A stretch of DNA of 64,000 nt from Calvatia gigantea (taxonomy: Eukaryota > Basidiomycota > Agaricomycetes > Agaricales > Lycoperdaceae). The notes below the pieces were generated by a model that saw only the letters and a list, made by a program, of their open reading frames with translations, was not told the origin of the DNA and did not search any database. The stretch covers positions 124,001 to 188,000 of the forward strand of contig JACAAK010000001.1 in the NCBI GenBank assembly GCA_025093985.1. Direction: 5' to 3'. Position numbers and translations under genes: made by a program. Positions within the stretch are counted from its first letter, which is position 1. The number at the start of each line of letters is the position of its first letter. Below, piece after piece: positions 14,527-61,533 of the stretch.

Positions 14527-14817
14527 TTAAAGAAAAGCACTGCTCAAGTGGGTGCAGATGCAGACGTTATCTGGGATACAAAGTGAAACAGATTGTTAGA
14601 CCATAAGCGAGAATAAAACACTTACTCTCAGTCGCAAAAGCCACCACTGATGCCTTGGGCTTGGGCGATGCAGTTCAAGCTACATGACTCATCTCCCCGG
14701 CTGCCAAAGAGACTACCGTCCACGCAGCTGACTCCCTGGGGGGATGGGGTGGGGGCACCCATGACCACGGTAATCGAACAAGGAGATGAGGGAGACGAGA
14801 GTGAGAGCAGGGTTCAT
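14527..14817 (-). pseudogene. Plectasin-like CSalphabeta defensin precursor, copy A, broken
   Basis: Read from ATG 14817, a hydrophobic signal peptide is followed by the six-cysteine defensin pattern. The pattern ends in GGFC, then an intron (GTAAGTG to CCCAG) and a last exon with the closing C-I-C pair; stop TAA is at 14527-14529. It shares layout and wording with the intact copies at 40517 and 61268. Two single-base shifts disrupt it: one in the signal peptide and one just after GGFCD, which creates a TGA. The expected TATA element in the shared upstream region is also altered compared with copy B. It is most like copy B at 28733-29009, including about 370 bp of upstream sequence. Confidence 0.8.
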
Positions 14818-15190
14818 ATTGATTTGTCAGCCAGCGAATGTTATATGTGAATTGAGCGACAGAGGCTCGTCTGGTTGGCCTTCATATTTGAGCCGAGCGA
14901 TGAGGATAGCGCGAGCAGGTTATTGTTGTGGCCGCTGAAATCGAGATAAGAATCCTATGCACCTATGTAAAGTTGGAGGTATGCATCCAGTTAACCACTG
15001 GAAGCTACCGGAATCATGGACGTTTCCCAACAATGTTTCCTTGACCACGACACTGCCTATGAAGATAAATTGCACTTATTTTCGATATCCTCGGGTAGCA
15101 GTTTGGAACCCTCGTCTCTTGTGACAATCATCTGCGGTGCAGAATGGCGCTTGCATATTTCCGCGTTTCCACCTACATCAATGGTCGTTA
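14818..15190. repeat. Upstream region duplicated with defensin copy B (29010-29403)
   Basis: The two blocks align without rearrangement. Shared landmarks include TTATTGTTGTGGCCGCTGA, CATGGACGTT and TTTCCTTGACCACG. With the genes included, the duplicated unit is at least 660 bp. This is a segmental duplication of a whole defensin locus with its promoter. Confidence 0.75.
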
Positions 15191-15929
15191 ATAGACAGAG
15201 CCAGTGGTTGTGCTGTCCCTGCGGCCGCCGGTGTACACCACCTCCGTCATTTAGGAATATTATTTTCGTAATCCACGCAGGTCAGTGTCTTCTATAATAA
15301 CAAAACATCAGTTCATCCGGTTTTACAATTCGCTCTTAAGTGGAGTAAAACCATGATTTTCATGTAGGGGAGGAATAAAGTAGGGATTTAACTATATTGT
15401 GATGTGAATTGAAGGCTTAGTCGGATTTTGGCTTGCCGCAAGATGCAAACTATCCCGTGGTTTCAAGGCTGGAGTGGATTCAGACATACGAGAGGCCAGG
15501 GGTGGCCTTTGCAAGTATGACTGAATTCTCATCGCTTGTTTGGTGGAGGGCATGTTGCCCGCATTTTGGATGACCAAGTTCCCGAACGCCGGAGTTGCGC
15601 GTTGAACTGCGCCGCTTTGATCTGACAGAGGACTTGCGGCGTGTGCCGCCTAGGGTTGCTTGCCTTTTCCCTTGGCTGTAGATTGGTGGGCTCTGCGTTC
15701 GACTTTCAGGCGTTCATTTGCTGATTTACGCCCACAGGAGTCGAAAAGAGTCGAAACAAGACACATTTGGCAGCATAGGGGCTAATCTTGTGGTTTGTGA
15801 GTGTGGGCTCTGTGTGATCCCAACCCTAACCCCGTTGTATTCAGGCCAAGGGTCAGGTCACTTGACTTTGAACCTTACTTAACCTTAAGAGTCCTAAAAT
15901 CCTTAGGCCTTATCGATCATTAGGACCAC
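15191..15929. other. Intergenic, nothing recognised
   Basis: The stretch precedes the NACHT gene and contains no supported gene. A single AACCCTAACCCC string at about 15822-15833 is isolated and not a telomeric array. Confidence 0.4.
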
Positions 15930-18264
15930 ATGCTCCTATATTCACGTCTCACGCAAAAGCTCAAGCGAAAGAAGAAAGGGAGGGCCCAACCTCTCCCGAA
16001 CAGTGACACTGACGTCTTTCCAGGCGGCAATATTGACCCTTCTGCCACCGACCCTCCCCCCGTCGACTCTCCTCCAAATGATTACGCCGCTGAGAACCGT
16101 GAGCTCCTCCTCCAAATACTTGCAAACGTATGTACGCGTTCCTATCCACCCAGACCCCAACTAACGACTGCTGGTTAACTTTCCGCACCGCACCCGCTCA
16201 TATCCCTGTAAGAGTTGCAAACTCATAAAGCGTATTTCTCATATGTGTGCTGCAGGGCCTCCGGTACCAGCAAGAAGAGTTAAAAAAGATCGGTTAGCCG
16301 GAAAACCACTCTACATTATATGATGAGGTGATCGACCCTGTATTAGTCGATTTGCACAACGCGCAGGGAGAGGTGGACATTCTCTTCCGACACTCGCTGA
16401 AGGGTGCTGGGCTACACTCCGTAGAGCGTTACCCCCCACCCCGATGTCACCCTGGCACGCGAGTGGATCTTAGGGAAAAGATCCACGCTTGGTTGGTGGA
16501 TGGGAGCAGAGAGCACGAAATACTGTGGCTCTTCGGACCTGCAGGAGTGGGAAAGTCTGCAGTGGCTCAGACCATTGGGGAACTCGCCGAAGAATTTGGC
16601 ACCTTCGGGGCTGCTATCTTCTTTTCCAGGGGAAGAAAAATCGATGATTCATCGCGCTTTGTCTCCTCCATTGCCTGCCAACTCCGAGCCGTACAACCAT
16701 CATATAGGCGGATGGTCGATGATGTAGTCGGGAAGAACCCGTCCATCGTCAGCGGGGATAAGCGAACTCAGTTCAGGAAACTCCTCATCGAAGCCTTTTT
16801 CTTCCCTGAAGCCCGAGGGAGAAGACCATCCCAAGCTATTGCTTATCATTGATGGGTTAGATGAATGCCGGGAAGAGGATGAACAGTTGGAACTGATTAG
16901 GCTCATTGCAGGATCCGTTAAGGATCCCGATTCTGTTCCCTTTCTATGGTTGATTTGTAGCCGCCCAGAGCACCTATCTCAAGGAGCTTTTTCGCAATGA
17001 TGGCCTCTCCGATATCTGCCTACAGTTGGACCTTCTCCCTCAGGAGGCTGGTGCCGAGACTGATATCCGTAGATACCTCACGGATGGCCTAGAACGCATA
17101 GCCGCGAAACACGATAACCAACGTCATTCCGATACAACTTCATCTCTGATCAACGACTCGGAAAAAGTCAACAAAATCGTCCTTGCGGCGTCTGGGGTTT
17201 TCGTGGTCGCTTCATCCTTACTCGGATTCATTGGTGATCCCATTGTCGCTGACCCTTCTTCCCAAATGCAAGTTGTTCTTGACGTGATAGATGGCATCTC
17301 TGTTGTTAGTGGTAGTAGCAACCCCATGGCGCCCATTGATATGCTCTACATAGGAGTGCTCGAAAAGATACGGGATGATGACCGGCCAAAAACTCTTGAA
17401 CTTCTCGGAACTTGCGCTGTTGCTCCACCGATACCTGCACTGCACTTAGCCAATTTGATTGGAATCACCCAAGAAGAGTTCTACTCCCCCCTTCGAACTC
17501 TACATGCCTTTCTTTACGTACCGCATCACTCAACAGCAAGCCACGAACCCTTACACTTCTTCCACGCGTCCTTTCCCGACTTTCTATTTCACGGTGATCG
17601 CTCGCAGGACTACTACCAGGATCCTGATATGCGTCGATTCGAATTGGCGACAGCGTTTCTGCATGCCCTCAATTCCACCAGCATCGACTATTCACAAGAG
17701 CTCTCATGGCTCCCTTCAGACGTTAGTCAAGAGGATGACGCTACTCCGCCCGAGTCGGAGTCCCCTTTGTCTATATCGTATGACATATTGAGCTTCGCCG
17801 CCGCTCACACCTGGGAGCTTTGCACGGGAATATCGAAACCTCGAAACTGGGGTCCCCTACTTAAGATGGTGGCCATTTTCGATTTCAGGCGACTTCGATT
17901 GCTCTGTGATATGGTACCTGTTCAGCCGTTTGTTCGGTTTATTCGATGGCTTCATGAACTGGTGAGCGGGGTTGTATGAAATATATCCCTCATATTTTGA
18001 CATGACACTTAGGGGAAGGAATTACCAAAATTGAGGGGTATCGTTCGCGAAGATTGTCACTTTGATACGGATGAGCAGTTACTGGAGAAGTGCATCCCTC
18101 TCGCAAAGCCGCTTGTGAGCCCACTCTTGCCAATTTCTACTCGAGTATGGATTGCGTTTGCTGATCTTCGCTTGGCCAGAACTTGGGATCTGCGACAGAG
18201 GTTTATGATCTTGACAAACTACCTCGATATATCCTCGCTGGTTTCGGAATCGAGACTGTGGTGA
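15930..18264 (+). pseudogene. NACHT-domain NLR-like protein 1, with one stop and two frame changes
   Basis: Fungal NLR-type STAND NTPase, the class linked to non-self recognition and programmed cell death. The first exon (15930 to about 16125) codes a basic then Pro-rich N-terminus. After an intron ending CTGCAG (about 16256) the protein runs through a linker with CHPGTR. Walker A GPAGVGKSA (16540-16566) and Walker B LLLIIDGLDEC (16836-16868) follow, then FLWLICSRPE and the helical region with FHASFPDFL near 17570. The last exon starts after a short intron (donor at about 17963) and ends at TGA 18262-18264. No C-terminal WD40, TPR or ankyrin repeats are present, so it is a short-form NLR. Breaks are an in-frame TAG at 16295-16297, a shift near 16810 just before Walker B, and one near 16980. 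It is closely related to the minus-strand gene at 20903-23049. Confidence 0.82.
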
Positions 18265-18526: not shown

Positions 18527-20735
18527 TCACACCCTAGCAAACCAAACTTCCGCAGACTCCTTTCCTTGTCCTTTAGGTGACGAGGCGTCCGAACCCTCCA
18601 TTCCCCAAAATCCACCTTTGAAGGCTAGACCCTCTTCTCCTTCCAATCCCAGGCCCTCGTCGCCGGGACTGGAAGGGAGGACCCATTCGAGTTCAAAGTG
18701 GTCGTCGAGGCCTATGAGCATATCTCCATCGTCCTCCCATCCCCCTTCTCCTTGTTGAAGAGTTGAGTCGGGCCTGAGGGAATTCGTACTCGAGAATACT
18801 TCTTGGGGTTTATCTCCACTACTAACGTCAGGGTATTCTTGCACGTCCGATGGAAAACCGAGATTGGAAGTTTGGATGGCACGAGGAGCATATCCTTCGC
18901 GTTTACGAGTATCGGCGTTGGACCAAACAACCGTAACATTGAATAGGTTGTCCGCAAAATGTTGTACTCGGAGGTGAGTTGCGAGGAGGCGGGGCCAGGG
19001 AATAATGAGCGTTGGGATTGTAAGGTTCGTTCCCTCGAGGAGGCGCTGGACTGGGAGAGTTGCCAAGAGGTTGTTGCAGTTTGTCTGGGCATGTGTCTGG
19101 TGGTGGATGCTCTCAGAGTCGTGGTTATATTGGGGAGTAGAGGAAAGGGAAGAGGGTACGAGACAGGGTTGGAGAGTCCCGTATGTGGGGTGGTGGTATG
19201 TCCTTTCTGCGAGAAGTATTAGCGGTGCAGTTGGCAGATTTGGGGGCTCGGGGCGAGGTGTCAAATTTTGTGAACTATTCACGAACGAAGCCCAGGTTTC
19301 TTCGTACCTAGTCCACAGTACATTGATGAGCCACTATCGCTCCAACAAAGATGAAAAACAAACACACCGAGAATTCCAATCGATATGATTACCCTCTCCG
19401 AACAGGATATCATCTGCAATCCTCCACTTGGCAGCCTCCATCAAATAGAACCCACCCGCATCGTTACTCAAAGAGATGATTGCGAGGTTGTCATTCGGGA
19501 ACCGCGCAACTTGGGTTCGGAAACCAGGATTAGTACCACCGTGTTCAATGATTTCGTGTCCACGGTAAGAGTAGCGCCATTGGCCTGCACCATATATTTT
19601 TGGGCTCTATTCAATTCATCAATTCGTATGAATATGGTGAGAGGAAAGGATCGGAGGGCGTACAAGTTCTGGGAATTGCGCTTTTCCTTCGGAGACTGTG
19701 ACACCAGTGGCGACATGTTGGACGACGGAAGAAGGCACAACTGTTTTGTTTGTGTAAGGATGTCGACCGCCGTTTAAGAGCATGGATGCCCAGATTGCCT
19801 GTGAATGACGATAGGTGTAGTACCGCGTTAAAAGGAACAAATATTGACATACTAGGTCGCGAGCTGATGATAGCACACCTCCCGCTCCCGCCCAAATCCG
19901 TTCCTCCCCAGGCCTGAAGAAGTAGGGTACAGTAGCACGTCGAGTACCGTTGACCCCACGAGTAAGATCCCTCATATGCCACTGGAATCCATCAGCGAGC
20001 GTTCCACGTTCTTCGGCCTCTCTGACGCTGTAAGTGGAAGAAGCCATGTTCAGCGGTCGGAAGAGGTGTTGGTCGACATAAGACTCGAATGTTTGGTTGA
20101 GGAATAATTCTGGGAGGTACGAGAGCGATTCATACATGAGATTGTTGTACTGGAAGGTTTGTCGGAATTCAGCTGAGGGGCGGAGGTGCCGCATTGTCGA
20201 AATCTAGTATGATCAGTCGGGAGTCGAAATGGTGAGAAATTTTCAACAACGCACCATTTCTGCGACTCCGCCCTCCCTCGGGGAACCCGAGAAATCATGA
20301 CGAGGCATGCCAGTACGATGAGAGAGCATATCCTGAATGTTTGTTCCCTTGTCCATGTCGTCGTCCATGAGTTTCCAGATGTCTCCGAAGACGTCCTTGG
20401 CATTCGTTGTCCATTTAAGTTCCTTCCCGCGCTCTTCACGAAGCGTCGAGTTTTCGATGAGCAAACCGACGGAACACGCAAGGAAAAGCTTGCTATTCGA
20501 TGCGATGCCGAAGACGGTGTCTGGCGTTACTGGGTCTCCATGGCCATTCGCGATACCATAGGACCCAAATTCATGGTGCCAACCAGTCCGAGAGGTATTG
20601 TCCTGTCTGACGACAAGCCACTGCAAGTCCAGACGAGTTCCATCTGGAAATGAGTGAGTTTATGTACTTCTCTGTGCTGGGAGTGATAAACTGGGCATGA
20701 ACCGAGAGTGCAAGGAAAAGACAAAGAGAAAACAT
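18527..20735 (-). CDS. Secreted beta-lactamase-fold serine hydrolase (class C / S12 type)
   Basis: Penicillin-binding-protein-like hydrolase; fungal members are esterases or peptidases, not known resistance enzymes. Start ATG 20735 gives a signal peptide (MFSLCLFLALSVHAQ). All three family motifs are present: SxxK as SNSK near 20500, YxN as YNN near 20140, and HGG (EHGGTNPGF) near 19530. Introns fit at about 20194-20250 and 19600-19660. A further minus-strand open segment (18527-19282) is the C-terminal domain, not a separate gene. It carries LFNVTVVWSNADTRKREGY and ends in FKGGFWGMEG..VWFARV. One single-base shift sits near 20630, between GLAVA and VRQDN. The gene lies between the two NACHT genes, transcribed in the same direction as the second one. 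Confidence 0.82.
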
Positions 20736-20902: not shown

Positions 20903-23049
20903 CTATGACAAATAGGAATCCACCGAGCCCGTATCGTCCTCACTACTATAATCGTCGCTGGAGTTGCTCACTGTCTGGAGCTCTGGCATGTCATCACCAG
21001 GTTCCCCTTCGATCACTTCCATAACAATATCACGGGATTTACCAGCCTGGCCCAACCGAAGGCGTAGCTTAAAGTCTCCAGGGTGTGCGCTAATCGCTGC
21101 ACGGGACCAACCAAAAGCTGACATGAACTCTCCTACCTCATTCGTGAAGTGTCTGATAAAAAGTCTATCAGCGCTTATTTGGGTATCAGCGAACGTCTCC
21201 GTAATGATTGAGTTATTCTGATCTCCCTGTGCAATAAATACTTAGCAAGGGTGAAAGGTCTAGAGTCAACAGGTGAAAACCAACCAATTTGGAAAGCCAC
21301 GTGAGGAAATTCGGAAACCCGGGTGGTTTCCCTACACTCCTAAAGTCGAAATGTTCCAATTCAGCAATTATCCTCGGCGCATCTGTGTCAGGAACGTGAC
21401 AGCATGCAGTCCACCCAAAGTTCCATGAAAACACTTTCAGAGTTTCGTGGACTTTCTGCTGCTCCACGCTGGAATGAACCCACGCTAGCTCTGGAAGTAG
21501 GAGTGTAGCGGGTGGGGAGATGGAAAAACCGCATGTGAGTGGCAAATTCGCGGTGATTCCAACAAACAGCTTACCCTGTTTTTCGGCAGGGGTATAGGGC
21601 GACCAAGACTGCCACTTTAGAGAATTAATTGCAACGTCATAGTGTGTTGTCGGCAAGTTGATAGAAAGGGAACCAGAGCGATGCGGATCGACAAGGTAAT
21701 CTCCAAAAGAAGCATGGTAGAAGTGAAGACGCCGGAGGTGAGCTTCTTCCACGGGAGGGATATCAAGCACAGAATGAAGTCGTTGGAGAGACCGGTAGAA
21801 AGTGGCTTGGTCAAGAAAGAGAAAGCTTGGCCTGAGTGTGTGCTGTGAGTCGGGTATCAGGATACAATATGGACAATCCAAGGATACGCATAGTTGTTCG
21901 AAGAATATCCTCGGGGATATCAGAGAGGATCCGTTGGTAAAGGAGGTCGAGGGCGTGCAAAGGGTTCACAACTCCTGTTGAACCAGTCTAAGAAGAGAAT
22001 ACACAGATCGAGTTGGCGTCGGGGGTCGGCGCGATACCTGTCGCCAACGAATTTAACGATGGTTGAAGCAAAGGCGAAGAGGCCAGATGAAATGGAAGAG
22101 ATTTTTCGGAGTTGTGTCTCCGACCGCCAACCTGGTTCAAGGCGATCTCGATACTTCTGGTAAATGTCCCGGAAGCCTGCCCTGAGAACACGGATAACGT
22201 CTTGTTGTGCCTCAGTGTCGTCAATGACCAGCTTTTCACGTTCGCAGGTAATTTGGAAGTCGGGGTGGGAAAGTAGACCTTTGAGGTGCCACTCTGGTCG
22301 ACTGCATATCATCCATAGTAGCGGAAATTTTTCCACCTGCCGAACGTGATCACTGATGAGCTCAATGAACTCACACTGGGCTTCCTCGTCATCACACTCG
22401 TCTAGCCCATCGAGGATGATCAACAACGGCCGCCGAACGATTTGCGAGCGCCGAGTCATAAGGATCTGGAAGGGTTCAATGATGAGTTCCTTAAATTGGG
22501 TTCGCCGATTCTTTTCGAATATCGTGGAGTCGTCAACGAGGCGTTGATTGACAATGTGCTTATATTCGGGATATTTGACGGCGAGCTGGTGCACGAGAGT
22601 TGGGATGACACCATCTGGATCGTTCCTGTGGTTAAGTCGGGAGAAGAACACGGCAGCACCGAGATGACCAGAAGCCTCAAACTCTTCTGCGATGGTTTGT
22701 GCTACAGCGGACTTGCCAACTCCCGCAGGCCCCATAATCCAGAACATTCTCCAGTGGCGATTGGCATCAGTGAACCACTGAGCAATGCGACCTCTTAACC
22801 TCTTGCGGGTGTCCAGGTGGCACTTCGGTGGAGGATCTCGTGCGGACGAGTTGAACTCGGCACCGGGTATTCCTCTTTGGGGCGATGAGCTGTTGCACTA
22901 AAAGAACCCTAATTAAAACCCGCGAGGGACGTGAACCCGTGAACATGCATACCTGTTCCTCCAGAGTTAATAGTTTGAGCGATCATGGTGGAGTTGTTGA
23001 TTACAAGATTCTGTGCGTTGGGGAAGAAGTGCGGGGTGGACGCGGACAT
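20903..23049 (-). pseudogene. NACHT-domain NLR-like protein 2, frame-disrupted
   Basis: Same short NLR class as gene 1. A first exon from ATG 23049 encodes a Ser/Asn-rich start (about 30 residues). After an intron comes a PPPKCHLDTRKRL linker, then Walker A GPAGVGKSA (about 22715-22740), Walker B LLIILDGLDEC (about 22395-22430) and LLWMICSRPEW. The helical region includes LHFYHASFGDYL near 21710. The last exon, after a short intron near 21230-21290, ends with an acidic Ser/Asp-rich tail at 20903. Frame changes lie near 22820 (before CHLDTR), 21980 and 21840. Walker A and B residues themselves are intact. No C-terminal repeat domain is present. It stands tail-away from gene 1, with the serine hydrolase between them. 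Confidence 0.82.
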
Positions 23050-24680: not shown

Positions 24681-25091
24681 ATGAAGATTACTCAGCTCTC
24701 TTTCGCCCTCACCGCCCTCTTCGCTACCAACATTACTGGTGCGCTCGGCCGCCATAACAATGCCCAGACCACCGCTGCGCCATGCGCTGATGATCAAGAT
24801 CAGAGCATTGTTAACATCCAAAATCAGGACACCACTATCGAGATCATTAAGGGCCAGACCGCCACCGCTGAGAGTGTTGCTGCTACTCAGACCGCTTATG
24901 CCAATAAACATCACAACAGGCGTGGCGTCGTCTGTAAAATCGGAGGTAACCCCGAGTGCCTCCTTGATTGTCTCGCCCGGGGCCACAGAAGTGGCATTTG
25001 CGATGACAGTAGGTTGCCTGTCCTTGTTGAACCTAGAGCAGTCCGTCTGACTTGGTGAATTCTAGATGATGTCTGTAACTGTGTCGATTAA
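24681..25091 (+). CDS. Secreted CSalphabeta defensin precursor, copy E, intact, with propeptide
   Basis: Two exons, 24681-25008 and 25066-25091, with a 57-nt intron (GTAGGT to TCTAG), give 117 residues. Residues 1 to about 22 are a signal peptide. Residues 23-79 form a Gln/Thr/Ala-rich propeptide holding one extra Cys (35). Arg80-Arg81 is a dibasic Kex2-type cleavage site. The mature domain from Gly82 has Cys85, 93, 97, 107, 113 and 115. The spacing C-x7-C-x3-C-x9-C-x5-C-x-C is the defensin pattern shared with the plectasin fold. The 26-nt last exon encodes VCNC. The mature peptide is acidic (about three Lys/Arg against six Asp/Glu), unusual for an antimicrobial defensin. A TATA box is 66 bp upstream. 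By family knowledge it would be secreted and antimicrobial or signalling; activity is inferred. Confidence 0.85.
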
Positions 25092-27285: not shown

Positions 27286-27640
27286 CACCTGAAACCAATC
27301 AGGATTGTTACCCATCACAGAAGGTACCCAAAATCCTATTCAAAATATAAAATCGTGGGATATCTCGGGACGCCCCACAAGTTTTATTACAGATATAGAA
27401 TAGATTAATAAATTATTGCAAACTACCAATCCGGGAACCTGATTGAAAAACAATAAGCAGCCATTATTGAAAATCTTTTTTTTGTCTCTGCACCGGACAC
27501 TGATCCTTGCTCCGATTTTGAATCCGCTCGGAAATCGGTACCTTGCACTGAGTCTTCCACCAATTCAAAGTCGGGATGGGTATAAGGTTGAGTGGCCCAT
27601 GAGTGGGCATGAGAGTGGGACACTCAGGTTGGTGACAAAA
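27286..27640 (+). repeat. Left arm of the fold-back element
   Basis: Reverse complement of 27741-28098, with a handful of mismatches and small gaps. RNA from it would form a 350-bp hairpin. Confidence 0.85.
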
Positions 27641-27740
27641 CTTCTGTAGTAGAAACAAATTTCATGCAGCAATTATGAGTAATTATGTACCCCGAGCTAA
27701 GATGCCAAGAAAACAAAATACCAGATATGGGTGAGTACGA

Positions 27741-28098
27741 GTTTTTGCCACCAACCTGAGTGTCCCACTCCCGTGCCCACGAGTGGGCCACTCACCCTTA
27801 TACCCGTCCTGACTTTGAATTGGTGGAAGACTCAGTGCAAGGTACCGATTTCCGAGCGGATTCAAAATCGGAGCAAGGATCAGTGTCCGGTGCAGAGGCA
27901 AAAAAAAAGATTCTCAATAATGGCTGCTTATTGTTTTTCAATCAGGTTCCCGGATCGGTAGTTTGCAATAATTTAACAATTCATTCTATATCTGTAATAA
28001 AATTTGTGGGGCGTCCCGAGATATCCCACGATTTTATATTTTGAATAGGATTTTGGGTACCTTCTGTGATGGGTAACAATCCTGATTGGTTTCAGGTG
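27741..28098 (-). repeat. Right arm of the fold-back element
   Basis: Partner of the left arm. The near-identity of the arms suggests recent formation or ongoing gene conversion. Confidence 0.85.
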
Positions 28099-47616: not shown

Positions 47617-47628
47617 GGGCCCATAACC
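47617..47628 (-). promoter_or_regulatory. Primer-binding site of copia family 2
   Basis: Minus-strand GGTTATGGGCCC directly after the 5' LTR, identical to the family 1 site and complementary to the initiator tRNA-Met anticodon arm. Confidence 0.8.
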
Positions 47629-47991
47629 TGTAGAAAATCTGTATAAACTCAGTAACTCGTTATACGCACGAGAACTATATATATTAGTCACCTGTATAAA
47701 CTGGTGATAGAATGAGCTTGGGTCTGGCTACGGAAGGAAGGATAACATACCTCAGTAACTCGTTATACGCACGAGAACTGAGGTATTCAGCTAATGAGAC
47801 TATGGTACTTAAGCAATATCATAAGGCAGGGTCGTATGCGAAAACTTCGTGTATCTAAGAGTCACGGCACTATGTTAAGTGTCCGTCTACGAAATAGGTG
47901 CCCACCGTGTAAGTCTAACTGGCACGACAGTGGACGCTCTGATGGCCAGTATGGCACTCCGCATGTCTCGGAGCGGTTTGGCAATTCAACA
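47629..47991 (-). repeat. 5' LTR of copia family 2
   Basis: 363 bp, TGTTG at 47991 to ACA at 47629. It differs from the 3' LTR by about three C/T or G/A changes. Confidence 0.93.
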
Positions 47992-47996
47992 CGGCC
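47992..47996. repeat. Target-site duplication of copia family 2 (CGGCC), right
   Basis: Partner of 42817-42821. Confidence 0.85.
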
Positions 47997-50087
47997 CTGT
48001 TTGTGATTTGCTTTATATCGAGGATGGTAGGTGAAATATTTCTTCCAGGAAGGGTTACGGCTTCCTTGCTTCCTTCGTTTCATTGCAGGAGTCGGAGAAT
48101 CGATCATAAGCTGGGCAATTGACAACAGGATCACGTGCGTGACGACTTGAGTGACTTTCCCAGACTTGACCTCTACCATTTATGGACAAAGTCGCAGTCA
48201 AGTCGACAAGTCTTCGACGTGACTTGTGCAACTTGTCACTCGAACGCACAACACTACCTGGGAAGGTCAACCCCACGGGATCTGAGAAGTTCAATGTTGA
48301 CAACGTCGGAGTGGAAATGGAAACGCTATGCGTGCTCCGCATCCTTATTAAACTGAGTGAGGAATAACGTTGGCTTGTTCACAGGTTATTTGCCGCTGAG
48401 TGTCATGACGGCCGATCTTGCAGTCGACAGCGCAGGATTCGAGTACTGACACAACAGTACTTGTGAAAAAAGTTTCTTTCGCCAGATGTTCCATGAGCGT
48501 TTGCTGACTCTTGTTGGCCACTGGTTTACGCCCAGTGAGAAACGGATTAAGCCGGGGTCACCTGGGGTGAGCTTTTTCGAGGGCCCGGGAAAAGCTCATT
48601 CCAGGTTCCTGCAGGACACACCGTGACGAAACTGAGTCGCCTGCACTAAGCCTCAGTGAGCTGGTCACCACTTCGACATTCCGTGTTATTCCGGGTGACT
48701 ACAGGTATTTGATATACATAACGATTTTCTCGAGCTACAGCCACCACTAGGTACCCCGCCCCAATCCCCCCTCCATTCCACTGAGTCGGCTCCCCTACAG
48801 TGGCATCCCGCCATCACATACATCGCGCCTTGCTGCCCATCGCCACCATCATCATGCGCATCCCACTGTGCCTTATCACTCCGATCTCTACACGTCCACC
48901 CCCCTGCTGCTCCGATCCCAAGGCCTCCGTCCTTCGTGTCATCATGTAGCTACAGGTTGAAGTTGTTAAAGGCGCTTGCGGCATGAAAGAAGGACAATAA
49001 CACACCTTTCATTCTATTTTCTTTTACCCTTCTTCCAGTAAATCTTTGCAACGAAACTACACCGTGCTCATTGTCAGTAATGTGTGCAGGTTGAGGAACC
49101 CAACACCTACATCCGCACCTGGATCCATCTCGGCCTGAATGAAGGAAGACTAAATGTAGATTTGAGTGTTGATATGACGGCATATGTGGAAATGAGAATT
49201 CACTATTTTAGTCGCCAATGCCGGAAGGTTGTGACTCGCTGTAGTCCTCCGCGATGTCCAAGTTTGTTTTCCGGCCGAGCACACCAATCACGAGCGTCAA
49301 GTTTCTTATGCAAATCAAGTTAGTGACCAAGAACGGAATAGTGAATAAGATCGACTCTGGTGATCTTCGTCAAGGATGGTGAAAATGTCCTCCACTTGCG
49401 ACTTGCGACGCTGAGCCTTTGAAAACCACTCCAGAGCATCCCAATATTCCCTACAATGCTTGAACTCAATGTGATGGCAGTCACGAAATCAGACTAGCAT
49501 TGTTGGTTCAAGAGAACACTTATCCCTTCGTCAAGTTCGAAGGTAGGTTTAGCTGTGTTGTTCGAGACATTGGGTGTCGATTCCGCAATTTCCTAGGCTT
49601 TCAAACCAGCTATGAAAGCACCAAACCCTGCCAATACGGCTACGGCAACCTGTTTTTAGCTGGCCGAATGTGTTTGCTGGTGCTCGCTTTGCTCTCGTGT
49701 TTGCACTCTCGCTGCCTTCGCCTTAATACTTTGCCACAGAACTGTAAGCAAACCATCACTGTAATAAAATGGTTGACCTAAACACTTCCAATGCATTCGC
49801 TGTTAAAGATTGGTCGTGCGGCCTTGGAAAGCCTAACAAGGGACCACAGGAGCTAGGTGCACTGCAGTGTATTCGGTGGGGAAAGGGGTTTGTTGGTGAC
49901 TAGGGTTTGTTCTGTTTGTGAGTTCTCGTCTCCTATTTGCATGTAGTTCTATTTGTGCATAGAAAACTCCCACAATGTCGTTGAACGTTAAAGCTTCGAT
50001 TATGCTCCCTATTATACCGCCGACTTGGTGGTGCTATCTGAAGCGTCCCATACTGTCCTCAAGCATGATACACGTTCCTATGTGACC
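47997..50087. other. Host spacer, partly matching the D-block spacer
   Basis: No gene is supported. From about 48460 (TTCTTTCGCCAGATGTTCCATG) it matches 62340 onward, and 49795-50087 matches 63120-63430 (for example TTCTGTTTGTGAGTTCTCGTCTCC). It is therefore the continuation of the segmental duplication that starts near 39880. Confidence 0.6.
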
Positions 50088-50848
50088 TGCACCTTCTCAA
50101 TGAATGTCGGAAAGTGGAACAAATCCGTAGGATCCACCATTGCTTTCAACCGCTGAAGGCGACCATAGTACTGGCCAAAGTACAAATGTTGCCCTGCCAC
50201 CACAATCAACCTCGCTGTTTTCCTGATGCTCGTCACTTACAGTCCTGCAATTTATTGTCAAGATGATTGGGGTATGCGCTGCAAGGAAATCTGGTATGTA
50301 ACGTCTCCACGAACTTGACTTCTCAGTGCTCACCTGTAACCCCAGCTTGGCGGGTTATTCGTGATTATGCTGTCAACCATCCCTTGAAATACGTGCGTAA
50401 ATACGATCTCCCACAGCATCCGAGTCAGGTCAAACCAACTTACCGTCAACGAACGAGAATCCGGACTGCGGGAACGGAGGCTCAGTGCTGGACGTAAACC
50501 CATGAAATTGAATAAGGAATAGTGCGTTCCTGTTGGCGAATGCCGTGCTGTCGAGCGGCACAGTGTTGACAACTGACCCTGGGCCTCCGAATTCCTCGAC
50601 TTCAATGAACCAATCCTACACGGGAGGTTTGAATGAAGGCGAACGCCCCCTCTCTTTGTAGGTATTGGCGCACCAGTCCTGATGAAAATCCTTCGTTTGC
50701 GAGGTATTCCATAAATGCTCTCTGGCTCTCCCGCATCATTGGTTGGTCCTCTGGCGTTAAAAGTGACATGACATAGAAGGTTTCATGTCCATCTGGGACG
50801 TCACTCGTATTTAACCTGCCGCCTTTTCCACCGGCGAACGCGACACTA
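50088..50848 (-). pseudogene. FAD-linked oxidoreductase (berberine-bridge type), C-terminal fragment
   Basis: Only the last part of a BBE-type flavoprotein is present. It reads GGRLNTSDVPDGHETFY and EDQPMMRESQRAFMEYL near 50700-50830, then WFIEVEEFGGPGSVVN near 50560-50610 and FPQSGFSF before an intron. It ends with the family's C-terminal signature YYGRLQRLKAMVDPTDLFHF and stop TAG 50088-50090. At least two introns fit. The upstream FAD-binding domain is missing because the copia fragment at 50849 abuts it. By chance the frame runs from copia RNase H into the oxidase. The second copy is at 63435. Confidence 0.78.
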
Positions 50849-53800
50849 TCAATGTACGTTTCCTTGGTAGATAAATAACAGGTAGTAAAGGTCCCATCAG
50901 AAACATGTTCACGAATAAATGATGTTTGATGTCTATGTGCTTGGTCCTTCCATGAAAACGAGAGTCCTTGGTGAGATCGATACTGCTGGTGCAATCCATA
51001 TAGACAGTGATGGGAAGTGAAACGGGCATCTCCAGTTCAGCTAGAAGTTGAACCAACCATAATCCATACTTGACAGTGTAAGCTCCAGCCATGTATTCCC
51101 TCTCAGTTGATGAGTCCCCAACTGTAGGCTGTTTCTTACTGACAGTGATAATAGATTTATCACCCATCTGAAGACACAACCAGTGACAGCTCGACGATCG
51201 TCAGGGTCCTCAGCTCCAGATGCATCAGAATAGCCAGTAAGGGTCAGGTGACGATTATCCTTGGATTTTCCTCCCAAGACTTGGACAATATCACGGAGTA
51301 CCAGCGAAGTATTGGAGTACATGCTGGGTAGCCTTCCAGTGCTTTGGTCCAGGGTTGGAGTGAATTGAGCAAGGAAGCGAGCAGCAAATCCGATGTCTGG
51401 GCGAGAGATGAGCGATATCCAGGTGAGAGCTCCTACAAGTTCACGATAGGGAGTCTTAGCCATTTGCTGTTTCTCTTCCTTGGTCTGAGGTCCATCAGCC
51501 TTAGAGAGTTTACAGCCAGGATCGAGTGGGAGTGATGTAGGATGGCAGTTCTGCATATGAAATCGCTTGAGAGTGGTATCGATGTACTGGCGATGAGAGA
51601 TGGAAATGGTTCGAGCTAGACGGTCCTCAATGAGAAGAAATCCCATGAGCCAATTCGGATCCTCCTCCTTCATGTCGAAGAGCTTGTGAAGTTGGGAGCG
51701 AACATGCTTGAGTTCATCCTGTGAGCATGAAGTACTGAACATGTTGTCGACATGGATGGCGATGATGGTAGTACCAGACTCCAGCTTGCGATAGAATACT
51801 GCATTATCGGTGTGGAGCTGTTTGAAGTGGATAGATGTAAGACGCTCAACCATGTACTTGTACCAGAGACGGGCAGCTTGTTTGAGTCCATACAGACTTC
51901 GGATGAGTAGTAGCGCCCTGTTGGTACCATCTTCAAAGCCAGGTGGTTGCTTCATGTAGATGATACAGTCGAGGTTGCTGTGTAAGAAAGCACCAGTGAC
52001 ATCATCTTGAGCACGTTCCCAACCAAGGGTAGCGGATAGGTGAAGGATGAGCTTGATTGACTCCAGACGAGTGGTAGGAGAGAAGGTATCGTCATATTCG
52101 AGACCAGGGATCTGATTGAAACCTTGGGCGACGAGACGAGCCTTGTATCGGAGTACTTCTCCTTCAGGTCCGAACTTGATCACGTAGGTCCATCGACAAC
52201 CAACAGCAGTCCTCTCCTTCGGCATCTTCTCAGCTCTCCAGGTTCCTTGAGTAGAGTGGAGAGATATCTCTTCCCTCATAGCTTTCCACCAGTTGTCGGC
52301 ATCAGGTCCAGTGATAGCCTCCTCGAAGCTCTGAGGGATGACTGGGCCATAGGCAGCTAGGTAGGCAATGTGAGCGAGGTCGCCTTCAGGAGTGTGCTCA
52401 ACAGCTTCGTGCTCAGGAATTGTAGGAGGTAGTTGGTATTTGGAGGTTGGATTGTTGAGACGATTAGCTCGAGCTTTACGTATTTTCTGACGCTGTTTCT
52501 TGGCTTCGAATTCCTTAACTGCTTGTTCCTTGTTGGCTTGTTTGATCCATGATGGTCGAGAGATTCGGGTAGTTCGTCGAGGCTCAGATGGATTAGGAAT
52601 GGAGGAAGGAATAGGATTGGGATTAGCAGTCGAAGGAGCTGGGTGAGGATCAGGAATGGATGGAGGAGTGGTGAATGGAGGATCGGAAGGTATAGGAGAT
52701 GAACGAGGGAGAGGCGAACCAGTCTCCTCAGGTATAGGGATGGAGTTAGGATGACTCCGAGAATGAGTGGGATCATCAATGTTCACCCCCTCACTTGTGA
52801 CAGGAGGCATAGATGTATCAATACCTGGGTGGTTCACTGTCTCATAGACGATGACATCCTGAGATACCTGAAATGACCTCTTCGAAGGGATCCATATCTT
52901 CCACGAAGTGGAGGCAGGATCGAAGCCACAGAATACCCCTTCAGTAGAGTGGGCATCAAGCTTTCCTCGTCGAAGTTCATGTGGTGTGCGAACATGGCAG
53001 CGTGATCCGAAAATTCGGAAGGCGGAGACACTGGGCTTCTCATTGAAGAATGCCTGGTAAGGAGTGATGTGGTTGAGTGTCTTGGTTGGACTGTGATTAC
53101 GAGCATTGCTAGCATACTGGTGAGCTTCAGGCCAAAAGCCATCAGCCATACCAGCCTCCTTCAACATGGTGAGGGCATGCTTATGAGTAGTACGATTGAA
53201 TCGTTCGGCTACACCGTTTTGTTGAGGAGTGTGTGGAGCTGACATCTCGTGGGTGATACCCTTGTCCTTGAAGTATGACTTGAGTGCATGTCCTGTAAAT
53301 TCGCCACCGCGGTCTGATCGAAAATAGACCACTTTGTTGCCAATTCGGTTCTCGAGAGAGGTGATGAGGTCTCGGAGGTGTTGTCGAGCATCGCTCTTCT
53401 GCTTAAGAAAGATCTTCCAGCCCATCCTCGAAAAGTCATCAACGACAATGAGGACATGGTGGTACCCTTCAATAGAAGTGGAGAAAGGGCCTTGGAGATC
53501 GGCATGAAGGCGCTCAAGGGGTCGTTTCGCTCGTTGCGAAGCTTGCTGAGGGAAGGGAGCTTGTGGATGCTTGCCGAGGGCACACCCTGCACATGCATTG
53601 AGTCGATCTGAGGTCTTGAGATCAAGCCCGGAGACCATCTGATGCTTAGCTAGGTGTCGGAGGTATTCCTCATTGAGGTGCCCAAGTCGGCGATGCCAGA
53701 GATCCAGTGACGATATGTCAGAGGAGATAGCAGCGAAGGCTAGCGAAGATGGAGGTGAAGTCTCGAGGGGATAAGAGCAGGTGAGGTGGTAGAGGCCATT

Positions 53801-54105
53801 TCGTTGGAGATGTCCTTCCATAACGATTTTGGCCTTCTTGTTAATTTGACCAATCCCCCCTTCTTTCGAATTTCAAGGCCTTTTTGATCCATTCGGCTCT
53901 CAGAAATGAGGTTGTCGCGAGCATTGGGACAGTATTTGACATCGAGGAGAGTGACGATGCGAGCAGGGCGGCCTTTCACGGTGACGAGGAGCTTAATGTT
54001 CCCCACACCTGTGGAATGTAGCTGAGGGCCGTCGGCATTGATACCTCCAATAATATCGTTGCGAGGTGTGAATGTTGTGAATGCCAATCGTTGGTTACAT
54101 ATGTG
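50849..54105 (-). mobile_element. Copia family 3, pol fragment without LTRs
   Basis: A third copia lineage is truncated on both sides. It begins within the protease (CNQRLAFTTFTPRNDIIGG), where the family 1 copy is inserted at 54106. It continues through integrase (LWHRRLGHLN, CAGCALGKH, VVDDFSRMGW, FRSDRGGEFTG, NGVAERFNRT) and reverse transcriptase (WTYVIKFGPEGEVLRYKARL, SLYGLKQAARLWY). It ends in RNase H (STEREYMAGAYT, KHIDIKHHL). The RT metal-binding box reads HVDNMFS, with Asn for the second Asp. Frame shifts lie near 53850 (G-run) and 51180. No LTR is visible, so this is a dead relic. Confidence 0.9.
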
Positions 54106-54513
54106 TGTTAAGACGAGTACACCACGATAGCATAAGCTAGTGGCGGAGGGGAGTCGTACTCACTGGGTTTGTTGAGATGATAATTGTAGACCGTAGCTAG
54201 AGGATATCTTAGAGGAATGATGGGCAAAGAGTAGACTGAATTGTCTAAAGAATGTACGCATACTACATAGGTCTTATATATCTAATGTCTCTGGTCTGTG
54301 CGCCGTTCTACCTAATACAGGTGAGGTCTTATCTGCCAGTAGCATATACAGAGCATACTGCGTACATTGTTCTATTTAATAGACCATGACCAGCAACCTA
54401 GAGTGCGGTCTAGTACATTGTCCGTTATCTCTCTTCAAGAGTGAAGTACTCAAGAACCCGTTTCAGCTATGAATAGACTGAACCAACGTAGTGGTACGGA
54501 TCGAGATTCAACA
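54106..54513 (-). repeat. 3' LTR of the truncated family 1 copy
   Basis: 408 bp, ends as in the full element, with about a dozen differences from the LTRs at 31806 and 39209. It is therefore clearly older than that insertion. Confidence 0.92.
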
Positions 54514-57500
54514 CTCCTCCTCACTTGAAGGAGGGAGATTAACGTTTCATCGATCGAGCGGCTTTATCCCATGCTTCGATATCGGAACCGAAAAATCAGT
54601 CCAAGCTCAGGGCGGAAGAGATTGATTTTGGTTACACCAAGATTCTTTGTAAAGATATCGGCGGGATTGTCTTGTGAAGACACATCACCAATAACAATAA
54701 TACCCTCCTCAACTAATTCTCGCACATAGTGGTAATGAATATCCACGTGCTTCGATCGTTTTTCAACAATGGGATTTTCAGTCCAGAATTTGGACCCATC
54801 GTTGTCGCCGTAGAGAATAGGAGTTGGGTGCTCAATTTTGAGCTCCTCCAGAAGCTGTGACAGCCATTTCACTTGTCGTGAAGCGTCCGACAGTTCTTTG
54901 TATTCCGCCTCAGTGGATGATAGCGAAACCGTCTTTTGTCGCCGCGAAGTCCAGGTAACAGCACCGGACGCGATCAGACAAACGTTTCCCGAAACAGATC
55001 GGCGGGTTTCTGTATCTTGAGCCCAGTCCGAGTCACTGAGACATTCCAGCGTGACCGCGGATTTCCCAGTATCGCCTTCATATTTCAATGCATAGTTCCT
55101 TGTCATTGACAAGTACTTTAGTACATGAATTCCAGCGTGATAGTGCTCAGGAGCGGGGTTAGCGGCATGTTGTGCCAGCTTAACTACGGCAAAGGCTATG
55201 TCGGGCCTAGTACTGATCATCAAGTACATTAAAGATCCAACCAATTGTTGGTACTTTAGACGGAAGGGGGTCGTTGCAGTTCCTTTGTTCGTAATGAACT
55301 GGAAGCCAGCTGGTAATGGCGTTTTAGCCGCGGCAGACTGCGGAACCTGGAAGCGCTGTAAGATCTTATCCAGGTATTTAACCTGTTGGATGAAGATTTG
55401 ACGCTTGGAGCGATTCCTCGTGATTTTCATCCCAAGGAATTCTTCACAGGGACCATGGTCTCTGCATTCCCACTTTTTGGTGAACTTTCCCTTCAACTCA
55501 TTGAGGAGGGGGGAGTTTTTCTTTCCCAAGAAATTCACGTCATCAACGTAGACAATGGCTACTACTAGCTCTTTTGTTTTCGGATGTCTGTGAAAGTAGA
55601 CGGCGTAGTCAGATTTGCAGCGGGTAAATCCCAGCTCAATCATGGATTGATGCAATTCTTTCCACCACTGGCGACCGGCTTGTTTAAGGCCGTAAATCGC
55701 TCATCTAAGTCTCCATACTTTTCCTTCCTGCCCGGGAAGTCGAAACCCTTCGGGCTGTTCCATGTATATTTCCTCATCCAGTTTGCCATATAAATAGGCA
55801 GTTTTTACGTCAACGCTATGCATATCCCAATCGTGGATTGCAGCGAGTGCGAAGCTTACGCGCGCTGACTCGTAGCGGACAACTGGTGAGAAAAGCTCGT
55901 TATAGTCGATGCCTTCAATCTGCGAGAACCCCTTCGCAACTAAGCGAGCTCGCAGGCGGCCATCGGACTTTTCGAGAAATACCCAACGGTTTTTAACCGT
56001 CCTCCTTCCTTTCGGAAGATCTACCAATTCATATACTCCGCGTTTTTTTCAATGCGTCGAGTTCCTCGATACACGTAGCCATCCATTTTGCCTTGATAGG
56101 CTCAGGAAGCTTAAGCATGTCACGGAAAGTTTCAGGCTCTCCGTGTGCGGTATTATGTACCGTCTGTATCAAGAAATCGATCAGTTTTACTCCTCCCTCA
56201 GCGACAAGCCTTTCAATATCCATATCATTTACGTCATGAGACGTTGGATCATTGATTTCAGGCATAGGCGGCAGTTCCGGACGTGGAGGGAGCTGAAATG
56301 GAGGCATATCAAAGGGTTGTGGCGGATACCGCTCAGCACGAACCCTTTGCCTCACATATTCAGGATGGTTAGTCCTTGCTCTTCGCTCACGGATAACTTC
56401 GTCCGAAGGGGCATTGGTGCGTATGCGCTGCCTTTGCCTCTGCTGCTCTTGTCGGTGAGTCCGATCTATTTCTCTTTCAATCGAAATTGGACGCCTTCTC
56501 TCCCCGTATGTATTTCCTGGTCTAACAGGAGGCCTGCCTTGTCGTTCAGAACGACGCGGCTCTACCTGGTCAGAACCAACAGCACGACGTTTGGGAACAG
56601 GGATTGGGAACTCCTCGTTTCTCGGTGTCCCATACATCTCTGTCCACATGCCAATTATCACGTACATCAGGTTCTTCCTCAACGGTCGTTCCACGCGAAG
56701 GTGGCGACTCAGGTGGAGGAACCCAAGGTGGCGTATTGCCAGGTGATGGCCGTCGTGAATCTATGCTGTCCGGCGGAGTAGACTCTCGTCGGGGTAAAGG
56801 AGGTGAAGGCGGAGAATATTTCGGTTTAAATGGTGGAGAAACCGGAGGTAATTTCACTGGATGATCAGGCGGAGGTGGAACAATTCCAGCGTCATCCGAA
56901 GATGGCGGAATAGTTGGTTCATTCTCTAATCCTGGTCTAGGCAGATTTCTCTCTCCTCCGTGATTAGGCCGGTTACTGCTATCCGGCACTGAATCGGGGC
57001 ATTTAGGGAAAATCCCTCGTCGAACAAGGCGTTTGGTGATATAAAATCACGTTGCCTGCCGTGTGCCGCATAAAGACGTAGTTTTTACTGCCTTTGTATC
57101 CAAGAAAGATCATCATCTCGGATTTTGCGGACAATTTGTTTGGGCGGATCTCATCGGGTAAATATACATACGCGCCGCATCCAAACACACGGATATGGGA
57201 CAGATTTGGCTTTTCCCTCGAATAACACTCAAAAGGTGTCTTCCACTGCAGACGCTGGACTGGTGTGCGATTATATAAATGCACAGCTGTATTCAACGCA
57301 AATTCCCACCACGAGTCAGGTAGACATGCCTGTAGCCTTATAGCTTGGGCTTTCTCGTGTAGGGTGCGGTTCAGTCTCTCTGCTCTCCCATTCTGCTGAT
57401 GTGCATAGGGAGCAGTGGTCTCGTGGGTAATTCCACGCGCCGCGAGTCCTGCCAATAACCTCTCATTGACATATTCTCCTCCATTATCGGTGCGAAGTCG

Positions 57501-59240
57501 TTTGACTCGCATTCCGGAGAGGTTCTCTAATGCGCTGATTAGCTGGATCAGTTTTTCCGAAGCCTCAGACTTCTTTCGAAGGAGGACTACGTGTGCGTGA
57601 GAAGAGAAGTCGTCGAGGAACGTCATTGCCCATTTATATTTATGGTAGCTAATGATGGGCAGTTCCAGCAAGTCTGAGTGACATAGCTCAAAGACTGCGG
57701 TGGCTCGCTTGGAGTTAATCGGGAAGGGGTTATTATGCATTTTCCCCTTGGCACAGCCGTCGCAAATGCCTTTCCGAGTTGATGGCGCGGGAATCGACGC
57801 GATGCCCTCAACGTGCTTTGGAAGCTCGGAGAGCGCGCGATCCGAAGGGTGTCCCATTCGACGATGCCAATCGATATAATCAAGTTGGCGTAATGTCAAC
57901 GCTACTGGTTTCTCCTTGCTATTTTGCAAGACATACGTGTGCACCGTATGTACGTTGTTTTTGAACAAACGATGAGGCCAGGCGGATAATACAGCTCCTC
58001 CTGATTTATCACGGATGGTGGTCCCTTTAACGGTTGCCTCTAGAACATAGCCGTTCCGAAGAATCTGGCCTGAGGACATTAACCGTTCTGTGATTTCTTT
58101 GATGTAAAAGACCGGCGCAATACATGAAGTAGCGCTCCTGGACTTTCCCTTGTCTGACACGTCATGCTGGAAAATCACAGACCCTCGTCCAGTCATTTCG
58201 TAAATCGGTTGCCAGCGGCTTGTATAAGCCCGAAATGGCCCATCTTAACCTCTGCGAAATCAGAGAGATAACCGGTGACATGGTACGATGCTCCAGAATC
58301 GAGGAGCCAGTCTGCGTTATTCACAGAATGTTTATTCCCTTCTTCTCGACACTTTTGGCACTGAGACAAATCACAGATGTGATATGTGATGATCTGATTA
58401 AGATCCTCGTGCTCTTCGTGGAGTTCTGACCTTAACTTGTCTGAATACTCATGGTTATTCACGGTATATGTAGCGTTCATCTTACTTTCCAGCTTAGGTT
58501 CACTAGCGGAATAAGCAGAAGGAGCAGCGCCTTGGGCGCGCTTCCAGCATACATTGCAGTGTAAAAAGTCTGTACAGCGGTGTCTACGACGAGTCCCTAC
58601 AGGAGGCGGACGACATGCTACATCTGCATAGGTGCCCCGCTCTCTTCGGCGGCCACCTGGTCGTCCCAACTCAACCTCGGAATCTCCAGGGCGTCCCGCT
58701 CTGAGGCGGACAGACCCTGCGTCTGTATCGTCCCGTCCCATCCGTTGATGGGGCTGTACATCATCTTCTGCATCAGAACAAGAATAGTAGTCAGTTGAAG
58801 GTACTGACCCACACCCTCCGTCGGAACCGTAGTCGGTGTCCGAGTCGTTGTCATCTAAGACCGACTCGAGGACTGACTCGATTTCCTTCGGTGCCTGCTT
58901 CTTCTTGAGCGGCTTGGGTTTCTTGATAATCGCCGGCTTGTTATACACAGGGGCCGGCCACGCGATCTCGTCTTCCTCCCTCGTGACGGTGGATGGATTT
59001 TTATCGACATCCATTTCGTCAAACCGCTTCCACATCTCCTCCGAACTCTCACCCGACGATGAAATGGAATTGAGACGTTTGTCCCAATTCTTTAAGGCGG
59101 TAACCTTGGCTTTCACCGAAGGTCTACGACGAGCTTCGGGTTCGGGCACAGTGATGCGCGACGCGAGTGAGTGGCATTGCTGGCTGTGGCAGCGGAGTTA
59201 ATGCAACGGGAGTATCTTTGGCTTGACCGTTGCTCTGAAG
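54106..59240 (-). mobile_element. Copia family 1, 5'-truncated reverse copy with multiple breaks
   Basis: The minus strand matches the family 1 element from the end of gag (about 59240) through pol to a complete 3' LTR (54106-54513). All pol domains are recognisable: protease LLDSGASYHVTG near 58290, integrase RTDNGGEYVN near 57480, RT YVDDVNFLG near 55540, and RNase H. It carries at least six frame changes: near 58200, 57050, 56640, a run of seven A near 56045, a run of five T near 54590, and one more. A TGA at 55701-55703 stands where family 1 has CGA. The 5' LTR and most of gag are gone. The LTR end is inserted into the family 3 fragment. Confidence 0.92.
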
Positions 59241-60834
59241 AGTCTTTTCGATTAAAGTTAGCTTAACTCACCTAATCATTACAAAGACTATTCTGTTATC
59301 AGCACAAGATCGAATTCATGTCGAAGCTGGGCATGGCGAGATATCTTCGGGTGACTCGAGGGGTAATATTTTTGATGCCGTTGAAAGCAGTAGCAGGACA
59401 TTATCAGTTGGTCAAACGGTAGTTACGCCAAGAGAGTACACCTTTGACAAACTTGGAATAAAGGTTCAGGACATTACGGTGGCAGCTGTCCAGGCATTCT
59501 TTAAAATTTGTAAACGAATTTGAGAGCCGTGATGTTGCCTCTGTCCCCGGGATTGAGAAGTGCAAAGCATTAGTAGTTTGTTATAAGACAGTGCATTGCC
59601 TAGAAGCTGACCGTTTAATACGAGTTGGACTTCTGGCCATGCTATGGGGGCATAGCTTATAACATGATGGTTTTAGAGGGCAGATAAAGCTAGTATGACA
59701 CTGTTAGAGTGCTTTTTAAACTTCACGTGCCGACCTAAATTCATGGTCTAGTTCTCATGATCGAGATATTTTTTTGTGCTTTGAGAGCACACTCCGAGAG
59801 ATTCCATGTTAAGCAAGTAGAAGTGGTCTGCAATAATGTTCGCAGCCGCACCATCAGAGGAGAAGTAACACCGTGTCAGAAGTCGGTACGGTGGATGGCG
59901 AGATCTGAACCGAACTACCACACCTACTTCAGCGAATCAACTGCCAGGCGAATTGGCTAATGATAAATCAAGTACGAAACTCAGGGGGAATAATCAATAA
60001 GTCATATTCACCAGTAGGATACAAGGGAATCCATTCAACTGAGATACGGCTTCGGCAAATCAACGGATAATCACTTGGCTATGATGCTCAAGACGACTTA
60101 CGAGAAAACGGGTTCTGCTCATAGCCTAGAGAGGAACGGGCATGGGACAGTATGAACGGGATGAGGGCCTGGTGAAATAGGGTGAATTCACCACCGGTAA
60201 TTAATAAGAGGTTTGATCCTTTCAAAAATGGCGCAGGACAGTAAGAATTTGTTACGTCTGAGATACGGGAATCTGATTAAAGTCGGGAAAGCTAGTTAGA
60301 CAATGGAGCGACCAAGGACCCAAAGTTCCTTGACAACAACCGTGACTATTCTCAAGACAGATTAGAAAAGGTCTAAAAGAGTAGGTGGGCTCGTCAATCA
60401 CAAGGAGATTGCTTGAATCCCAATGAAGTCAGTATGTGCCAGAACTAGAACCATCTCAAACATATACCAAGTTTTTGGAAAAGATCCTTAACACATCGCA
60501 TGCACATTTAACAAAGTTCCCGATATGCTCAGACTCGACGATACAAAATACACACTAACCAGTCGCCCAGACCAAATTCCAAGAAAAAGATGCTGAAGGC
60601 TAAACAACACATCATAGAATAGGCCAATGCAGGCCATTATTTGGCAAAACTTGAACCTTATGCTGAACTGCTAGGATGCCTCCTTTTTCATAACCGATAC
60701 CCAGACTGGCGTTCCAGCAAAAAACTGCCTGCATATTACATATCAATTGAAGCTTATCGGAGATAGCTGATGCATCTGTGGTCCCCTATCCTATTCCAAT
60801 CAGTGGTAGATCTTCAGAATCCCCGTTGAGATGT
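59241..60834. other. Intergenic, 1.6 kb, nothing recognised
   Basis: No coding frame above 67 codons, no motif and no match to other parts of the window was noticed. Confidence 0.4.
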
Positions 60835-61030
60835 TTTTTTCTTGTCCGGGTCACGGGTTCGTAGCAAAGGCTTTCGAGTTTACCTTGTAACTTTCGGCAA
60901 GTTTGATATGATATATATTAAGTAATAGATGACAGGTTCATCATAGTTGCATTTACTTTCTGTGTCTTTTGGGTCACATTCAGACAGCGACGGAAGCCCG
61001 GCCCAGACTTTCAAAGCATCCTGCAAGGCC
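60835..61030 (+). repeat. 3'-flank module of an E-type defensin gene, gene itself absent
   Basis: Matches 25120-25340 and 39880-40075 (TTTCTTGTCCGGGT, GCTTTCGAGTTTACC, GGAAGCCCGGCCCAGACTTT). The E-type gene that should precede it is not found upstream, while a C/D-type gene follows in opposite orientation. Confidence 0.7.
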
Positions 61031-61267
61031 GTCCAAACATGATGGAAGTCAAATTCCGGGCGAGTAAGTCAAATATTCGCGATTCTGGGAGTAGTCACGC
61101 AGAATCCAACTATCTCACTTCCACCTCACTGGCCGTTCTCGACAAGTATGGTCAGCATTCTCTTACATACGGTGACAACAAATATTGCGTTTTCGTGCTA
61201 CCAAGTCTAGGTGTTCCATTCAGCCTGGGAGCAAACTTCTCCACGGAGAAAAACGAGCGAGTGATCC

Positions 61268-61533
61268 TCAATGGTTACAGACACAGACTTGGCCTGGCGT
61301 TTACAAGCGTCAAACAAATCGCTATATGGAACGAGCACAGGCGACCTACGGTCATTGCAATATCCACCTTCGAAGCCCTGACCCTGAACTATGCAACTGA
61401 AGCTGCAAGCCGCATCGCCTGCACTGAAGATACCGCCCACCTGGCAGGAGACCTCTGTATCAGGAGTGGGGGCACCCACGACAGCGACAGCAAACCAGAT
61501 GATGAGGGTGGCAAGAGTACGAGTAAACTTCAT
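61268..61533 (-). CDS. Plectasin-like CSalphabeta defensin, copy D, intact
   Basis: Two exons, 61350-61533 and 61268-61293, with a 56-nt intron (GTAGGT to GCCAG), encode 69 residues, exactly as in copy C. Signal peptide 1-20 (core LIIWFAVAVVG) is followed by APTP. Cys30, 43, 47, 59, 65 and 67 give the same C-x12-C-x3-C-x11-C-x5-C-x-C spacing. GGYC (56-59) and VCVC are at the end. A longer upstream frame exists, but the ATG at 61533 fits the signal peptide, the TATA position and copy C. The mature peptide is acidic with one Arg. It is the least disturbed locus of the family here. Confidence 0.88.

Follow-up and report, generated by a model that had tools for sequence, protein, structure and literature searches.

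A cluster of defensin-like genes and broken copies among retroelements in Calvatia gigantea

A 64,000-nt stretch of the Calvatia gigantea genome (hereafter the window, with positions counted from its first base) carries eight loci of a family of short, six-cysteine, defensin-like genes, comprising three intact genes and five broken or remnant copies. The window corresponds to bases 124001-188000 of the 3.59-Mb contig JACAAK010000001.1 in a 46-Mb genome assembled into 77 contigs (GCA_025093985.1). Family searches over this genome matched DUF6534 31 times and Fung_rhodopsin once, which suits an Agaricomycete and speaks against kinship with Aspergillus. Its defensin-like loci, with Pfam PF01097 scores and predicted cysteine-stabilised alpha-beta (CSalphabeta) domains where applicable, are as follows.

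24681-25091, plus strand: gene A, intact; 117-aa precursor with a predicted 36-aa CSalphabeta domain, intron 25009-25065; PF01097 23.7 bits
40517-40782, minus strand: gene B, intact; 69-aa insect-type defensin-like precursor, intron 40598-40543; PF01097 28.8 bits
61268-61533, minus strand: gene C, intact; 69-aa paralog of B, intron 61349-61294; PF01097 32.0 bits
14527-14817, minus strand: p14, broken B-type copy with frame breaks, one TGA and one TAA; CxC piece remains
28733-29009, minus strand: p28, broken B-type copy with frame breaks; CxC piece remains
33811-34148, plus strand: p33, A-type remnant inside a copia element, beside an empty insertion site
39615-39952, plus strand: p39, A-type remnant directly 3' of that copia element
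60811-61048, plus strand: r60, A-type 3' flank without coding part, tail-to-tail with gene C

Genes A, B and C are real, intact, spliced genes. Models rebuilt by script agreed with the three genes proposed in a first-pass annotation of this sequence, and the splice points given there (25008/25066, 40542/40599 and 61293/61350) are the exon bases flanking the introns that the script found. These introns (57, 56 and 56 nt in A, B and C) are all GT-AG and in phase 1, and they occupy a common site between Cys4 and Cys5, ahead of the CxC end. Each translation has a hydrophobic N-terminus, as judged by eye, and the framework C..CxxxC..GxC..CxC, and each passes the curated cut-off of 20.4 bits for Pfam Defensin_2 (PF01097). 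The exon 1 motif C-x5-15-CxxxC-x5-12-GxC, required to lie in an open frame with an upstream M, has four matches in the window, namely A, B, C and p14, of which all but p14 splice to CxC plus a stop; across 300 order-2 Markov windows the motif averaged 0.027 occurrences (largest 1) and the spliced form never appeared, figures to be read with a motif defined after the genes were seen and a rough null model.

By sequence, the cluster holds two classes, one represented by A with its long propeptide and the other by the insect-type B and C, the proteins of which are identical at 45 of 69 residues. With signal ends placed by eye, the propeptide of A spans ~60 residues and ends in Arg-Arg (RR) ahead of the mature domain, whereas in B and C only ~9 residues without lysine or arginine (K/R) separate the signal end from Cys1, leaving room for at most a very short propeptide. 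A would be released at RR by a putative protease, which we take to be Kex2-like; B and C would need signal peptidase only, and the peptides would face outside microbes. Secretion, three disulfides and a CSalphabeta fold form part of an overall explanation that we consider probable as a whole.

Searches against PDB sequences returned insect defensins and engineered variants for gene B (best match 2nz3, E-value 7.5e-7), and a profile built from B, C and 13 of 44 homologs (A7) reached such sequences at E-values of 1.9e-9 to 6e-4, as against 0.67 for the plectasin variant NZ2114, a weak match that still leaves room for kinship. The mature domain of A was closest to robber-fly Dg3b (6px8; E 1.3e-6), with insect defensins matching weakly (best 0.009). 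Insect defensin A, lucifensin, Anopheles-based defensins and Dg3b, the best sequence matches of B/C and A, have the cysteine framework of A, B and C, yet they are animal peptides. Matches of full-length A to Pizza proteins were discarded, as they vanish when the mature part alone is the query. The modelled structure of the B/C homolog P0005 has a helix and a hairpin, and the top 13 of its 19 Foldseek matches in the PDB are CSalphabeta defensins (best E 0.23), plectasin and eurocin tying with insect defensins by fold. The epithet 'plectasin-like', applied to the family at first, appears to suit its fold and not its closest sequences.

The 44 homologs (E <= 10) stem from a profile search with the B/C type, in which the C sequence had one wrong residue. 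Those with species names come from Aspergillus, Penicillium, Mortierella, Linnemannia, Amanita, Lyophyllum and Cyathus. Homologs in other species are annotated, with two of 24 species-named models (P0019 and P0023) stopping short of CxC and the partial entries P0021 and P0025 likewise lacking it. Alignment A3 took in 43 of the 44; structure alignment A6 took in 20, excluding P0003 and 23 truncated, apparently unspliced or incompletely read sequences. For gene A, a search of the protein collection, limited by its method to proteins of similar length that have 5-residue words in common with the query, gave two candidates, none at E <= 1. A and B share a 27-bp stretch across the splice donor (24/27 identical, 89%), and this match, together with the shared place and phase of the intron, suggests that the two are old paralogs.

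The loci at 14527-14817 and 28733-29009 are broken, as the first-pass annotation had held. In p14, the signal peptide and the mature part lie in different frames and a stop follows the fourth Cys, while p28 needs three frames for its signal, first Cys and remaining Cys; the two are 77% identical over 550 nt, flank included. A further broken locus, entered as '33830-34048/39622-39853', is in fact two A-type remnants, p33 and p39, which are 97% identical to each other, and their separation together with the addition of r60 raises the count from six loci to eight. Both are tied to A by ~71% DNA identity only: tblastn with protein A recovered no part of either, and their alignment to A has a gap over the CxxxC stretch and a CxC without its first Cys. 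r60 is 77% identical to A and 84% to p39. The statement that all loci show a signal peptide, the cysteine pattern and an intron is less well supported: the precursors differ between A and B/C, and the A-type remnants lack most of these features. The original idea of a paralogous, CSalphabeta defensin-like family with pseudogenes is supported. Just downstream of gene A, the segment 25340-25656 is 66-76% identical to a repeat at 20392-20735.

Elsewhere in the 46-Mb genome, neither protein searches (queries: exon 1 of A, exon 1 of B, P0006 and P0012) nor DNA searches with three segments, all of which score first-look candidates only, found the family; the sole extra DNA match, 56 bp on contig C45, belongs to flank outside the gene. 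The B-type searches were sensitive enough to recover p14 and p28 (68-69% identical). Two candidates from a six-frame Pfam search, on contigs C45 and C5, were rejected, being below the cut-off and with the full framework not shown; that search gave weak signal in three of 14 control genomes too and was insensitive here, scoring C below the cut-off and missing A and B. At two places within the cluster, p39/B and r60/C, a B-type gene and A-type sequence face each other tail-to-tail, so that A and B were probably duplicated together. A and p28 follow a like order, but are separated by 3.6 kb of other sequence.

Two copies of one copia family lie in this region, the first being a long terminal repeat (LTR) element.

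31806-39616, plus strand: copia LTR retroelement; LTRs 31806-32213 and 39209-39616, 99.75% identical; 5-bp target duplication CCCCC on both sides
54105-59234, minus strand: second copy of the same family, in inverted orientation between B and C; 95% identical over 5.1 kb

The first copy, which abuts p39, contains gag in 32388-33148, an integrase region in 34100-37783 and an open reading frame at 37732-39183. Its insert at 33149-34148 is a 1-kb copy of the region into which the element itself inserted, matches the two flanks at 94% and 97% identity, and includes the unoccupied insertion site and p33; it may have been taken up from another allele in the course of repair, or else it may reflect an assembly join of two haplotypes. 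Another copia element, with gag, integrase and RVT_2 in 43549-47727, is surrounded by LTR-like repeats (~99%) at 41708-43191 and 47627-47998 with a 900-bp spaced duplication. On the minus strand, 51041-53872 holds a further open frame of copia type, 943 aa long, in which integrase and RVT_2 domains are present.

The first 10 kb of the contig contain six TTAGGG-like repeats (at most one mismatch) where 0.09 are expected, and repeats of this kind occur within its first 4 kb; the defensin cluster thus probably lies close to the end of a chromosome. The explanation that we consider probable, taken jointly, is one of place and process: a defensin-like cluster in a retroelement-rich region close to a contig end with telomere-like repeats, which would evolve by duplication and loss (birth and death) amid these retroelements.

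Between the coding sequences of B and C, 51 of 210 nt are different (synonymous divergence dS 0.54, nonsynonymous divergence dN 0.24), which amounts to 24 amino-acid changes versus 30.5 when the same changes are placed at random (P 0.008). Such random placement left no stop in 29% of cases, and no stop together with all six cysteines in 1.8%. The codon usage of A is host-like, with none of 5000 random codings as good, measured against a rough reference of three stop-to-stop window frames with Pfam domains that may include non-coding ends.

Several results weigh against the birth-and-death explanation or parts of it. The dN/dS of B versus C is 0.45 (NG86 method), indicating weak constraint, and the identity of the two genes is 77% in their coding parts and 71% in the intron, as against 75-77% in flanks of 200 nt; because the flanks are conserved as much as the coding sequence, constraint on B/C is mild. 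On the same reference, B and C do not clearly resemble coding sequence in their codon usage (P 0.26 and 0.10). A tree of 22 domains on 40 columns, from which P0015 and P0016 were dropped as identical to P0014, did not resolve the branching, and the fold was modelled for homolog P0005 alone, with Foldseek E-values that are not significant. Since the A-type DNA search missed p33 and p39 (71%), decayed A-type copies elsewhere could escape it, and the absence of the family elsewhere is weaker for A-type remnants. Finally, beyond the signal end as placed by eye, B has no K/R and four acidic residues (D/E), and C has a single K/R.

The B and C flanks, as conserved as the coding sequence, and the fact that five of the eight loci are broken or remnant would fit a family in which all copies, A, B and C included, are relics on their way out and the intact frames are left over. 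We regard this as unlikely, as it must contend with three complete frames that depend on splicing, with the host-like codon usage of A and with the retention in B and C of all six cysteines and no stop (joint P 0.018; P 0.29 for the missing stop alone). Still more drastic would be to take the intact genes for chance open frames, which their shortness might invite; with a spliced match in none of the 300 random windows, and with named fungi that have homologs of B and C, we give this practically no credence.

The scarcity of basic residues bears on function, for which we draw on excerpts of the cited papers. Mature A has three K/R and six D/E, and the 19 homolog domains scored have 0 to 2 K/R. 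Pechrysin and anisin1 are both reported to be without antibacterial activity, so a plectasin-like role is not to be assumed for B and C. In pechrysin, a classical insect-type fungal defensin, scarce cationic residues are the likely cause (PMC4165938), and the expression of anisin1 accompanies conidiation (PMC6394349). B and C, with zero and one K/R past the signal, might likewise be fitness or development peptides that kept the fold and lost the antibacterial job, a tentative view that we think has somewhat more against it than for it: anionic AfusinC is active against Gram-positive bacteria, for which a positively charged loop 3 residue may be important (PMC6181372), and anionic abisins exist in Agaricus (PMC4165938). 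With pechrysin inactive but AfusinC active, charge alone does not settle function. Characterised fungal defensins target lipid II (PMC6272156), and a weak, target-specific antibacterial action through lipid II binding, likelier for A with its three basic residues than for B/C, seems to us almost an even bet. We would hold as quite improbable, and offer as speculation, that A, as an undescribed, propeptide-released class, and the nearly non-basic B form a functional pair, arranged tail-to-tail, repeatedly duplicated, jointly expressed and employed, the turnover of which is driven by retroelements; if true, the non-cationic members of the B type would serve as partners or modulators, not as killers.

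The remainder of the window holds a BCS1-like AAA frame (9664-10998), NPHP3_N / NACHT domain pieces (16298-16852 and 21920-22897), a beta-lactamase-like piece (19619-20203), an 813-bp inverted repeat that is perhaps a foldback element (27286-28098; 88% overall, arms 94-96% complementary), and an ~800-bp repeat at 49882-50652 and 63197-64000 (83% identical).

Defensin-like gene clusters with pseudogenes are already known in fungi, and the present cluster is real but fairly ordinary. Six loci in 47 kb had been thought dense for such a family; Pyronema, however, has six defensin genes within 11 kb, two of them pseudogenes (PMC3778014). These pyronesins resemble the Calvatia genes in being clustered Defensin_2 genes with one intron and pseudogenes (2/6) (PMC3778014, PMC4165938), but are more tightly packed and highly similar to plectasin, have RNA sequencing data, and come without mention of a retroelement in the excerpted text (PMC3778014). 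Clustered genes have also been published for abisins and malpisins (PMC4165938), and among zytrisins some genes are adjacent and some are pseudogenes (PMC5234102). Abisins 1-3 of Agaricus bisporus (fDEF1) offer a mushroom host and three paralogs on one contig, as here; they are anionic (-2.8 to -3.8), with 39-40 aa in the mature form and one intron in the helix or c-loop, and a single intron disrupting helix or c-loop is found in all of A, B and C (PMC4165938). The propeptide ascribed to fDEF1 and fDEF2 is present in gene A, whereas that of B/C is at most very short; B/C are not filed under fDEF1, and the abisins are likened to them by description (PMC4165938). Pechrysin (Penicillium chrysogenum) is called insect-type, as are B/C, and the excerpts report no cluster for it or for anisin1 (Aspergillus nidulans); by a link from name to sequence that we infer, the two probably group with P0011 and P0014-P0017 among the homologs. 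Literature searches did not meet this cluster, a result of little weight as they were run without the species name, and one for 'atesin' found no occurrence among the matches listed.

The A-type sequence, an orphan subclass by the comparisons made here, appears to be the newest part of the find. The cluster and its pseudogenes add to the defensins of mushroom relatives, with A as a putative new orphan subclass. They also extend the patchy distribution of insect-type defensins among distantly related fungi, a pattern relevant to the question of horizontal transfer posed for Pyronema (PMC3778014), and as natural non-cationic members they allow the role of charge in the CSalphabeta fold to be tested.

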